Positions 570-6,061 of a DNA stretch of 33,217 nt are shown one piece after another. The stretch comes from Candidatus Aridivita willemsiae (GTDB lineage Bacteria; Actinomycetota; CADDZG01; WHSQ01): assembly GCA_013695835.1 (NCBI GenBank), contig JACCZU010000004.1, positions 1 to 33,217 of the forward strand, written 5' to 3'. How positions within the stretch are numbered: the first letter of the stretch is position 1; the number at the start of each line of letters is the position of its first letter. A model generated the notes under the pieces. That model was not told where the DNA came from. It made no database searches and was given only the letters and a program-made list of their open reading frames with translations. Position numbers and translations under genes: made by a program.

Positions 570-2123
570 ATGACCCCTGAAGCCGTCACCCTTGCCCGGC
601 GCTACACGCTTCAAGACCGGATTGCCGGGGGTGGCATGGGGGCAGTATGGCGAGCGAAGGACCTCGTCCTCGCTCGCACTGTGGCGGTCAAGATCCTCCA
701 CCGGAGCCTCTCGGACAATGAGCAATTCGTCGAGCGCTTCCGTCGCGAGGCCTTTGCTGCCGCGCGCTTGACTCATCCCAACATTGTCTCCATCTACGAC
801 ACCGGGCAGGAAGCCGCGTTCGACGACGACGTCGCCCGCCATTACATCGTCATGGAGTACTGCGGCGGGGGAACGGTGGCGACCACGCTCGAACGGGGCG
901 GCCCCCTCGAGGCGTCCGAGGCGTTTGGGATTGGATCCACGATTTGCAACGCGCTCGGCTATGCACACCGCATCGGGGTCGTGCACCGAGACATCAAGCC
1001 CGAAAACGTTCTGATCTCAGAAGATGGTGAGCTCAAGGTCGCGGATTTCGGGATCGCCAAGGCGGCCTTCGGTCTCGGTGACATCACCACCACAGGTGTG
1101 ATCCTCGGCACCGTCACGCACATCTCGCCGGAACAGGCTCAGGGCTTGGAGCCCGATGCTCGTTCGGACCTCTATGCACTCGGCGTGCTCCTCTATCAGC
1201 TGCTTGTCGGCCGCCCACCCTTCAAAGCCGAGAACGAGATCGCAACCGCCATGCAGCACGTCCGAACGAAACCTCCTCCCCTTCGCAGCTTCAAGGCGGG
1301 CATCCCCAAAGCCGCCGAAGCGGTAGTCCTAAAGGCGCTGGCCAAGGACCCAAACGAGCGCTACCAGACGGCCGAGGAGATGCGCTCCGCCCTCGCCGGC
1401 GCCACGTCGTCAGCGGCACCTCGAGCCGGCCGCCAGACCGCAGTCGTCGAAAGCCGTCATCTGGCACCCGCCACCTCGGGCCCCCCCGAAGCCACGTCGG
1501 AGGTTGACATCCGCCCTGGGGCGGACCCCCCACCCTCGACCGGCTCGCGTTCACTCATTGCCGTTGGGCTGCTGGTCTCGCTGGCCATTCTCGCCGCCGT
1601 GCTGATACCGACCCTCACAGACGATCCCTCGGGCGGCAACGACCCGGGCGGCGACGGAGGACGGGGCCGCGGGGCCGGACAAAACGGAGGGACGGCGCGC
1701 ATAGAGGTGGCCGAGGTCGCCGACTTCGACCCCCACGGCGACGTCGAGCATCCTGAGGAAACCCCTAACGTCGTCGATGAGAGCCTTGACACCGAATGGA
1801 CGACGGAAACCTACAGCTCGCCGTTGACCGCCCTGAAGCCCGGAGTCGGACTTGTCTTCGATCTCGGCGGCCCCCAGACCGTCGAGCGTGTCGAGGTGGC
1901 CAGCAGCGCGCCCGGCTACACTTTCGAGCTCAAGCAAAGCAATGTCGTTGCGAGCGACGAGACCGGTTTCGCCACCGTCGAAACGACCTCGGACGCGCCG
2001 GCAGAAACGCTCGTCAGCTTTGAGCCGGTGGAGGCAAGGTACTGGCTCCTGTGGATCACGCAACTGCCCGGTGGGACCGGGGGCAGCGCCTCGATCTCCG
2101 AAGTCGAGTTCTTTGGGACCTGA
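570..2123 (+). CDS. membrane Ser/Thr protein kinase with discoidin-like extracellular domain
   Basis: A eukaryotic-like (Hanks-type) kinase of 517 residues. The cytoplasmic kinase domain spans about residues 12-275. It has a glycine-rich loop (GGGMG, 20-24), the ATP-binding Lys41 in VAVK, the catalytic HRD motif with Asp141 and Lys143, the DFG motif at 159-161 and an SPEQ motif in the APE position, so it should be catalytically active. A Pro/Ser-rich linker leads to one transmembrane segment at about 328-348. A Gly/Asp-rich spacer follows, then a roughly 140-residue extracellular beta-rich domain resembling F5/8 type C (discoidin) modules, which often bind sugars or cell-wall ligands. The place next to the sigM-like gene matches the mycobacterial MurJ (MviN) pseudokinase region, but here the kinase is separate and intact. 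It probably senses the envelope and phosphorylates neighbours such as CwlM or the sigma system; that role is inferred. No strong Shine-Dalgarno precedes ATG 570. Confidence 0.9.
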   Translation: MTPEAVTLARRYTLQDRIAGGGMGAVWRAKDLVLARTVAVKILHRSLSDNEQFVERFRREAFAAARLTHPNIVSIYDTGQEAAFDDDVARHYIVMEYCGGGTVATTLERGGPLEASEAFGIGSTICNALGYAHRIGVVHRDIKPENVLISEDGELKVADFGIAKAAFGLGDITTTGVILGTVTHISPEQAQGLEPDARSDLYALGVLLYQLLVGRPPFKAENEIATAMQHVRTKPPPLRSFKAGIPKAAEAVVLKALAKDPNERYQTAEEMRSALAGATSSAAPRAGRQTAVVESRHLAPATSGPPEATSEVDIRPGADPPPSTGSRSLIAVGLLVSLAILAAVLIPTLTDDPSGGNDPGGDGGRGRGAGQNGGTARIEVAEVADFDPHGDVEHPEETPNVVDESLDTEWTTETYSSPLTALKPGVGLVFDLGGPQTVERVEVASSAPGYTFELKQSNVVASDETGFATVETTSDAPAETLVSFEPVEARYWLLWITQLPGGTGGSASISEVEFFGT

Positions 2124-2240
2124 GGGAACATCCCTTCCTCCTCGGGCCCTGCCTCTTCCTCCGGTGCTCCCTCGCCGGGCGGCCCCACGGACGGGGAGCT
2201 CGTTCGGAGATTTCTTGGCGGGGATGACGACGCCTTCTCC
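2124..2240 (+). other. in-frame start-less segment between kinase stop and sigma factor
   Basis: After the kinase TGA at 2121-2123 the same reading frame continues for 39 codons without a stop and without any ATG, GTG, TTG or CTG until GTG 2241. The last 16 or so codons (from about 2190) read DGELVRRFLGGDDDAF, which matches the conserved beginning of ECF sigma region 2.1. The segment is therefore probably translated. It could be reached by stop-codon readthrough of the kinase, by a rare start such as ATC 2130 or ACG 2187, or the apparent gap could reflect a sequence error. Confidence 0.6.
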
Positions 2241-2765
2241 GTGCTTGTGCGCCGCCATGAAGACCGGATCTTCGGGCTCGCCCTGAAGATGACGGGCAAT
2301 AGATCAGATGCCCTCGATGCAACCCAAGACACCTTCGTGACCGCATGTCGACGCGCCGGGTCGTGGCGCGGGGACGCCGCCTTCGGCACGTGGTTGTACA
2401 GGATCGGAGTTAACGCTTGTCACGACCTGCTCCGTAAACGCAGTGGTCGGGAGCTGCTCGAACCCGACGGAGGCACTGAGGGGGGCGACTCCTGGCTCGA
2501 GTCCCGGGGGCGGCCCGATGCGGGTCACGACGTCCAGGCATCGGTCACACTTCGCCTCGACCTCGCCCACGCGCTGAAGGACCTCCCTGAGTCCCAGAGG
2601 GAGGCGGTCGTCATGCACGATCTCGGAGGCGTGCCCTACGGGGAGATAGCAAGCCTCACGGGGGTAAGCATCGGAACGGTCAAGTCCCGCATCAGCAGGG
2701 GCCGTAGAGCTCTGGCCACCCTGTTGGAACAACCAGGCTCCCCACAGGCGTCGAAGGAGGAATGA
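2241..2765 (+). CDS. sigM: ECF-type RNA polymerase sigma factor, SigM-like
   Basis: An extracytoplasmic-function sigma-70 family protein. From GTG 2241 it has 174 residues. Region 2 covers about residues 1-65, with the DALDATQDTF core-binding helix followed by the FGTWLYRIGVNACHD promoter-melting segment. Region 4 covers about 100-155, with LPESQREAVV followed by a helix-turn-helix ending GTVKSRISRGR. The canonical start is doubtful because conserved region 2.1 sequence lies upstream in frame (see 2124-2240), and GTG 2241 has no well-spaced ribosome binding site. The stop codon overlaps the anti-sigma start in an ATGA, the usual arrangement for a sigma/anti-sigma pair. Position upstream of trxB and cwlM matches mycobacterial sigM, which I use for the symbol; orthology rests on synteny plus family similarity. 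The stop-to-GTG distance from the kinase gene is 117 bases. Confidence 0.85.
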   Translation: MLVRRHEDRIFGLALKMTGNRSDALDATQDTFVTACRRAGSWRGDAAFGTWLYRIGVNACHDLLRKRSGRELLEPDGGTEGGDSWLESRGRPDAGHDVQASVTLRLDLAHALKDLPESQREAVVMHDLGGVPYGEIASLTGVSIGTVKSRISRGRRALATLLEQPGSPQASKEE

Positions 2766-3829
2766 CCACGTCTCCCGAGCTCTCCCACGAGCGCTGTTCT
2801 GAGCTCCTTGGTTCGTATGTAGCGGGCGAGCTCACAGCGAACGCCGCCGGGGCCGTAGAGGACCACCTCGACGGCTGTGTGGCCTGCTCAGAGGAGCGGG
2901 CCGGCCTCGTCCTGCTCGTCGCCGATCGGGAAGCCGCAGGTCTTAGCTCGGCCGAGCGTCAACGCCTCCACGTCGCGCTCGATCCGGCGGCGCTCAGAGT
3001 AGATGCCGTTCGCGTCCCGGAGGAAGACGTGGCCAGGCGCCGGCGCGCCGGGGCCGAAGGGCGCCAGCGGAGCCGGCGGCAGCCGGCCACTCGGGGTGTC
3101 TGGGCCCGCGTGGCTCCTGCGCTCGGCGCCGCTGCGGTGCTCGCCCTCGTCCTTGGCGGAGGAGCGCTGCTATTCACGACCGAGGGCGGGATCGGGGGGC
3201 AGGGCGCGACGGCGGAAAGTGGGGCTGAGACGGGCGGCGGAGGGACGGTCGAGAGTCCCGATGGGACGGGCGGAGGAGGGACGGGCGGATCTGCCCCATC
3301 CGGCGGCGGGAAAGAAGCCCCCACCGACGGCGAAACGCAGGACAAAGGCTCACGGGCGGCCACGTTCGGCAGTCTGGCGGTGGGCCCGGCCCCCAGGTTT
3401 GCCGCGGCAGAGCGGTCGCTCGACGAGGGCTCCCTGGCGTCACTCGGACGCGAGCCCCCCTTCACCGCCTTCGCCCACTCATACCAGAGGCGTGCAGCCG
3501 GGAACCTGGGAGACCTTTTCCTCAAACGCCTGGCCATCGCGGCGGCCGGCAAACCGGCGGGCGGGGGCACCCCGGATTCGAGGTTCGCTCAGGTCCTGGC
3601 ATGCGGCCGCAACGCGCTGAGCCGCCGGCCAGGTGCGCTGCCTGCCTACGCGGCTTACGCGGTCTTCGACGGACGCTCCGTCCTTGTTATCGGCTTTGCC
3701 TACCCCCGGCCGGGCCACCGCCCGCTCGACCGCTTCATGGTGACGGCATGGGGTCGGAGCGGGACGCTCGGAGCTGCCCGGCAAAGCTGTCGCAGCCCGC
3801 TGGTTTCCGAGTCCGGCGCGATCCCGTGA
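2762..3829 (+). CDS. membrane-anchored zinc-type anti-sigma factor
   Basis: The partner of the upstream sigma factor, 355 residues, translationally coupled to it through an ATGA overlap. The N-terminal 50 residues form a ZAS-type anti-sigma domain with Cys12 and the His35-x3-Cys39-x2-Cys42 motif. A basic region precedes one transmembrane segment at about 118-140. The outer part has a long Gly/Thr/Ser-rich linker and then a C-terminal domain of about 130 residues containing two cysteines (in LACGRN and RQSCRS) that could form a disulfide outside the cell. The layout matches mycobacterial RsmA, the SigM antagonist, although the ectodomain is larger than I expect. Cys12 together with His35, Cys39 and Cys42 resembles the zinc and redox-switch set of RsrA. 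A thiol-sensing role is an inference, helped by the SigR-type promoter of trxB just downstream. Confidence 0.85.
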   Translation: MTTSPELSHERCSELLGSYVAGELTANAAGAVEDHLDGCVACSEERAGLVLLVADREAAGLSSAERQRLHVALDPAALRVDAVRVPEEDVARRRRAGAEGRQRSRRQPATRGVWARVAPALGAAAVLALVLGGGALLFTTEGGIGGQGATAESGAETGGGGTVESPDGTGGGGTGGSAPSGGGKEAPTDGETQDKGSRAATFGSLAVGPAPRFAAAERSLDEGSLASLGREPPFTAFAHSYQRRAAGNLGDLFLKRLAIAAAGKPAGGGTPDSRFAQVLACGRNALSRRPGALPAYAAYAVFDGRSVLVIGFAYPRPGHRPLDRFMVTAWGRSGTLGAARQSCRSPLVSESGAIP

Positions 3830-4851: not shown

Positions 4852-5000
4852 CCTCGCCCGCATCCGTACTCGGAGTGCCCGCATCGAAACTGAGGCCTCG
4901 GGGTAAGCGTCTAACCTCCCAGTACTAGCCCTGCTGTCCACTAGGTGGGCGGCGCACGGAGGTCGGCCGGTCCTCTGCGGCCCCGCCGGCCACGACCCTT

Positions 5001-5006
5001 GGGAGG
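5001..5006 (+). promoter_or_regulatory. ribosome binding site that selects a CTG start for cwlM
   Basis: GGGAGG lies eight bases before CTG 5015. The frame is closed by TAA at 4904-4906, and no ATG, GTG or TTG occurs in frame before GTG 5135, which is inside the first peptidoglycan-binding domain. Confidence 0.65.
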
Positions 5007-5014
5007 CAAGACCC

Positions 5015-6061
5015 CTGCTAATCCGCAAAGGCGACCGCTCCAAAGAGACCGAAGACATCCAGGCCCGCCTGAGGGGACTTGGTAGCGACATCGACGACGA
5101 ACCAGGCTATTACGGCGACGCCACCGCCACGGCGGTGAGCGCCTTTCAGCAGGAACGCGGGATCCTCGTCGACGGCATCGTTGGGTCCCACACCTGGGGT
5201 GAGCTTGTCGAGGCGTCGCGCCGGCTCGGCGACTTCATCCTCTACCTCAAGCAGCCCCTGATGCGCGGGGACGACGTCCTCAAGCTCCAGAAGCGCCTGA
5301 ACGCCCTCGGCTTCAACGCCGGCCGCTCCGACGGAATCTTCGGGCCAGACACCGACCGTGCCGTGAGGGCCTTCCAAAAGGAATACGGAGTCGCTGAGGA
5401 CGGCATGTTCGGGTCGGCCAGCCACGCTGCATTGGTCGGGCTCCGAGTCGACCGGCCGGGGACTCCCGCGGTCCTGCGCGAGGAGCTACGCCGCTCGGAG
5501 CGGGGCGACGTCGACCTCAAGGAAGCCCTCGTCGTCCTCGATCCAGGTCATGGCGGCGGCGACCCCGGCATCTGTGGCCCGGCAGGCATTACCGAGGCCG
5601 AGCTCTGCTGGGAGCTCGCCGTTCGGGTCGCCGAGCGCCTCGCAGGCGGGGGGGCTCGGGTTCGCTTCACCCGCACGGAGGCCGAAAACCCCCTCGCCGG
5701 GGAGCGCGCCCGCCGCGCCAACCGGATCGGAGGAGACCTGTTCTTGTCGTTTCACCTCAACGCGCACGAGGAGCAGACCGCAGAAGGCGCCTCGACCTAC
5801 TATTTTCACAGCTCGTATCCGGCGGAGCGGCTCGCCGACGAGCTTCTAACCGAGCTGATCGACCTCGGCATCAACAACTGCAGGGCGCACGGGCGCTCCT
5901 ATACGGTGCTCAAGGAGACCCGCATGCCTGCCGTGCTGATCGAGCCGGCGTTCATCACGAATCCCGACGAGGCCAAGCGACTCCAGGATCCCGAGTTCAT
6001 GAAAACGCTTGCCGACGCCGTCTCCACGGGCCTCCGCCGCTACTACAGGCACCAGCCCTAA
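5015..6061 (+). CDS. cwlM: CwlM-type N-acetylmuramoyl-L-alanine amidase-fold protein
   Basis: A 348-residue protein, counted from CTG 5015, without a signal peptide or membrane segment. It has two PG_binding_1 repeats (about residues 1-65 and 78-140; both include the typical G.L..DGI(V/F)G loop) and a C-terminal Amidase_3 domain (about 170-345). The Amidase_3 zinc ligands appear intact: His179 in DPGHGG, Glu194, His247 in SFHLNA and Glu310 in LIEPAF. In mycobacteria CwlM is a cytoplasmic regulator of peptidoglycan precursor synthesis (MurA) phosphorylated by PknB, and I recall its zinc-site residues as degenerate, so this copy may keep real hydrolase activity. Choosing GTG 5135 instead would cut off half of the first repeat. 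The stop faces the parB stop across six bases, with no room for a terminator hairpin. Confidence 0.88.
   Translation: MLIRKGDRSKETEDIQARLRGLGSDIDDEPGYYGDATATAVSAFQQERGILVDGIVGSHTWGELVEASRRLGDFILYLKQPLMRGDDVLKLQKRLNALGFNAGRSDGIFGPDTDRAVRAFQKEYGVAEDGMFGSASHAALVGLRVDRPGTPAVLREELRRSERGDVDLKEALVVLDPGHGGGDPGICGPAGITEAELCWELAVRVAERLAGGGARVRFTRTEAENPLAGERARRANRIGGDLFLSFHLNAHEEQTAEGASTYYFHSSYPAERLADELLTELIDLGINNCRAHGRSYTVLKETRMPAVLIEPAFITNPDEAKRLQDPEFMKTLADAVSTGLRRYYRHQP

Follow-up and report, generated by a model that had tools for sequence, protein, structure and literature searches.

AUC is a very weak start codon and is discriminated against by IF3. In Mycobacterium tuberculosis, the order of genes at the sigM locus is mviN(murJ)-sigM-rsmA-trxB-cwlM. 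The kinase-like domain there belongs to MviN and is inactive (PMC12599244, PMC6180346). Starts other than NTG are already known from infC and sigR: in Streptomyces, infC has an ATC start, and sigR, which encodes an ECF sigma factor, has a GTC start that leads to repression by IF3 and to an excess of the anti-sigma factor in the SigR/RsrA pair (PMC5472188). Termination-reinitiation with a Shine-Dalgarno (SD) sequence inside the upstream gene is also an established arrangement (PMC6728339), and the neighbourhood of kinase and ECF sigma genes has been described for ECF43, EcfP/PknT and EcfK/PknS (PMC8999054).

Here we analysed a stretch of 33,217 nucleotides (the window) from the uncultured actinobacterium Candidatus Aridivita willemsiae, the one member of its genus in the comparison, with a draft assembly of 302 contigs. 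The stretch carries a Ser/Thr kinase gene followed by genes for a stress-response sigma factor of the ECF type and its anti-sigma factor (Table 1). The catalytic motifs HRDIKPEN and DFG of the kinase are both intact, and its C-terminal domain weakly resembles the F5/8 type C domain (Pfam F5_F8_type_C, 1.2e-4, below the model's own cut-off). As an ECF protein the sigma factor is complete, and Pfam finds both region 2 and region 4 in it. Its best NCBIfam model was that of SigM (NF007225), and because it scored 164 bits against a cut-off of 190 although it was the best of all models, we call the protein SigM-like. Downstream of the anti-sigma gene lie trxB and a peptidoglycan amidase gene; further on, reading of the open reading frame list without family models gave parB/parA, rsmG, jag, yidC, rnpA, dnaA, dnaN, recF, gyrB and gyrA. 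Relatives have murJ and a DUF6049 gene ahead of the kinase; murJ is visible in relatives only, because the contig of the window begins too close to the kinase. The SigM-type order murJ - sigma - anti-sigma - trxB - amidase is matched with this one gene taken from relatives, and the locus resembles the SigM locus that Actinomycetota have near the origin.

Table 1. Features of the kinase-sigma-anti-sigma region of the window.
Feature	Position	Strand	Basis or remark
Ser/Thr kinase gene	570..2123	+	stop TGA 2121-2123; Pfam Pkinase 2.1e-46
Kinase Glu-Val codons	2100..2105	+	GAAGTC in the window; GAGGT(N) is the sigma SD in 13 relatives
TTG where relatives start sigma	2113..2115	+	frame other than that of sigma here; without SD (-2.5 kcal/mol)
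GAGG, candidate SD overlapping the kinase stop	2122..2125	+	sequence; -6.1 kcal/mol for a start at 2130
ATC, most likely near-cognate sigma start	2130..2132	+	inferred; infC of the lineage uses ATC/ATA
Ser/Gly/Pro linker, low complexity	2133..2186	+	missing in relatives
SigM-like ECF sigma gene, conserved part (regions 2 and 4)	2187..2765	+	stop 2763-2765; Pfam Sigma70_r2, r4_2
zf-HC2 anti-sigma gene	2762..3829	+	ATG overlaps the sigma stop (ATGA)

Several further observations concern the neighbouring genes. The contig opens within a frame (2-559) that lies ahead of the kinase, on the side where murJ is expected; its protein has one likely membrane helix and gave no Pfam or NCBIfam match. In the amidase, the conserved N-terminus extends beyond the first usual start, GTG 5135, on the upstream side. 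Its translation likely starts at CTG 5015, which follows GGGAGG (5001-5017; -10.2 kcal/mol); in three relatives an ATG or GTG stands two codons before that position, where the window has AAG. In relatives, trxB and the amidase are also separated by a further gene (L067:11670-12254, with an M23 peptidase match, and L069:12770-13372, a frame only), for which the corresponding gap of the window (4852-5000) has no room. An apparent sigma-anti-sigma fusion in L015 came from a string of N in the assembled sequence.

Beyond the kinase stop, from 2124 onwards, the kinase frame meets no further stop until the sigma TGA at 2763-2765. The first-pass annotation had reported that this frame lacks any usual start, and our reading agreed: the 39 codons at 2124-2240 contain no ATG, GTG, TTG or CTG, and the first usual in-frame start, GTG 2241, is already within the conserved region of the sigma factor. 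The conserved sigma sequence described at the end of this stretch was likewise recovered, since TDGELVRRFLGGDDDAFS (2187-2240) is conserved across 15 family members, with 5-10 of its 18 residues identical and with differences distributed over the three codon positions as 105/91/169. Judged from sequence conservation, 2187-2240 is translated in the sigma frame, so that the true start has to lie before GTG 2241. The linker behaves differently: 2124-2186 aligned with no relative, and neither codon statistics nor GC3 of the linker singled out the sigma frame. Coding constraint, which had been proposed for the start-less stretch as a whole, is therefore demonstrated for the last 18 codons only. When the 117 bases were shuffled, 56% of the shuffles were free of stops and 3.3% lacked both stops and starts; the open run is unremarkable and the additional lack of starts mildly remarkable. 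Furthermore, among the 14 sigma-70-type genes above cut-off in the genome, the SigM-like one alone has no ATG, GTG or TTG upstream of its conserved region.

The kinase-sigma junction is present in all 15 other family genomes examined. In 13 of them the sigma gene overlaps the kinase's final codons in a different frame, its TTG or GTG start lying 5-8 nt ahead of the kinase stop. All 13 have a GAGG as SD where the kinase encodes Glu-Val, with pairing energies between -6.6 and -10.2 kcal/mol; its distance to the kinase stop is 21 nt in 12 relatives and 18 nt in L008. The Glu codon is GAA and GAGG is absent in the window and in both sister-genus genomes (-2.5/-1.5 kcal/mol); in both genera the sigma gene is in the frame of the kinase and its start, a candidate one in the window, lies past the kinase TGA. 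The sister genus has a GTG start 12 nt after this stop, with SD energies of -4.1 and -6.6 kcal/mol. TTG 2113 is probably unused, because it is out of the sigma frame and has no SD. The family illustrates how a start site can depend on the lineage when an SD inside the upstream gene hinges on one synonymous base (GAG or GAA). The split between window plus sister genus and the remaining family received 100% ultrafast bootstrap support in an unrooted tree, so either arrangement, overlap start or start after the stop, may be the older. No family member has ATG as its inferred sigma start, and the anti-sigma gene mostly has ATG in an ATGA overlap. A scan of genome contigs for closer relatives gave a best match of 45% identity, and a pattern scan of viral contigs gave no further copy of the junction. 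In several GC-rich loci, long sigma frames extending upstream were shadow frames; the kinase there is read in a different one.

The window reads TGAGGGAACATC after the kinase stop, with GAGG overlapping the stop and ATC 4 nt further. This ATC at 2130 is the only ATN or NTG codon in the sigma frame between the kinase stop and the conserved region, and it is a near-cognate codon with an SD at usable spacing, although about 17% of positions picked at random in the window also reach an SD energy of -6 kcal/mol or better. A start there would give the N-terminus (M)PSSSGPASSSGAPSPGGPTDGELVR. We consider it an even call that the sigma factor is a separate protein starting at AUC 2130 by means of the GAGG that overlaps the kinase TGA, probably through termination-reinitiation. 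A rare start codon had been one of the options raised by the first-pass annotation, and this option is credible because infC starts with ATC or ATA in the family: of 13 genomes with a readable start, ten have ATC (L081-L089, L092), and ATA is found in the window genome (L093, G000:C251) and the sister genus (L090, L091), each behind a strong SD. The choice of ATC 2130 itself stands at evens; its counterpart in the sister genus is the GTG after the stop and not an AUH codon, and because one genome of the source genus entered the comparison, the AUC start is a position that we infer.

The annotation had headed its entry with possible readthrough of the kinase TGA, which would give a kinase-sigma protein of about 730 residues, and in support of this the two genes share a frame here with no intervening stop. 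The comparison of the junction frame in relatives, proposed at the same time as a check, shows the in-frame arrangement in the sister genus only; in the 13 of 15 family members that start sigma at TTG or GTG in another frame, readthrough could not join kinase and sigma. Within the sister genus, an ordinary GTG follows the stop, and the four codons between stop and GTG (RDRT versus REPS) differ at three of four positions while both flanks are conserved, so this comparison gives no sign of protein-level constraint between the kinase stop and the sigma start. Moreover, the fused frame was found in 0 of 30 junction loci, the genome has no SelB above cut-off, and RNA folding at the junction is ordinary (z -0.32). 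A kinase-sigma readthrough product is thus highly improbable, and selenocysteine at the kinase TGA was rejected with it.

Initiation at GTG 2241 with loss of the first helix of region 2 is very unlikely too: it is the first usual in-frame start and the Pfam region 2 match begins only at frame residue 41 (about 2244), but the sequence at 2187-2240 is conserved as protein and included in all relatives, and the SD of this GTG is poor (-3.6 kcal/mol). Another near-cognate codon, or a gene that has lost its start and is decaying, is unlikely. ACG 2187 lies exactly at the beginning of the conserved part and has a pairing energy of -5.8 kcal/mol, but ACG initiates poorly and the GGGCGG upstream of it departs from a standard SD; start loss is a common first step of decay, yet the remaining sigma gene has neither stop nor frameshift, and its domains and the anti-sigma gene are intact. 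A base error, strain mixture or recent variant carries somewhat more weight while still being rather unlikely, either with a real ATG at 2130 or with a 1-nt indel in the linker that masks TTG 2113 or GTG 2164. The draft state of the assembly, the single substitution that separates ATC from ATG behind GAGG, and the TTG at the relatives' start site all speak for it; against it, the rest of the operon is without breaks, near-cognate starts are normal for infC of the family, and the in-frame arrangement and the missing old SD are common to the sister genus. Since the sister genus shares both, no indel is needed, and an indel restoring TTG 2113 was not our first choice.

If the sigma factor does start at AUC 2130, its translation would begin just after the kinase stop, with the GAGG serving as SD and with ribosomes that finish the kinase probably aiding initiation. 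Discrimination by IF3 against AUC would then cause the sigma factor to be made sparingly relative to the ATG-started anti-sigma factor. Both the limitation by IF3 and the resulting scarcity of sigma are, like the codon, suggested by analogy and sequence context, and a weak start may be what keeps sigma below anti-sigma. It is possible, though we hold this only tentatively, that an AUC-started SigM-like sigma gene behind a cell-wall kinase gene, with IF3 setting the sigma:anti-sigma ratio, represents a second start-codon-controlled sigma factor outside the SigR group, in a lineage without the SD in the kinase Glu-Val codons. If confirmed, it would be a second sigma factor with a rare start, differing from sigR in both ECF lineage and codon, which suggests that rare start codons could be a recurring means of holding sigma below anti-sigma. 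Gene finders generally take ATG, GTG and TTG only, so such genes are truncated or missed.

Compared with the known systems, the relatives of the window share with M. tuberculosis the order of genes near the origin. In contrast to MviN, the kinase of the window (570-2123) keeps its catalytic motifs, and murJ and the kinase are separate genes in relatives (L067, L068, L069); a split of the mycobacterial fusion and a never-fused ancestor of it are both conceivable. As in the kinase-activated ECFs (ECF43, EcfP/PknT, EcfK/PknS), a Ser/Thr kinase gene adjoins an ECF sigma gene. However, those groups are usually without a paired anti-sigma gene (PMC8999054), whereas the window has a zf-HC2 anti-sigma gene at 2762, which makes the usual anti-sigma control more likely. 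With infC genes, which start at AUU or AUC, the candidate shares an AUH start behind an SD, and the lineage's own infC uses ATC/ATA; the SD of infC is stronger and its start is conserved family-wide, whereas the sigma ATC is known from one genome. Streptomyces sigR-rsrA serves as the functional precedent. The window differs from it in the SigM-like ECF lineage, the ATC codon, the position behind a kinase gene, a modest SD as opposed to AGGAGGTG of sigR, and an IF3 effect proposed by analogy; both are actinobacterial ECF sigma genes without an NTG or ATG start that overlap, through ATGA, the gene of a zinc-finger anti-sigma factor.
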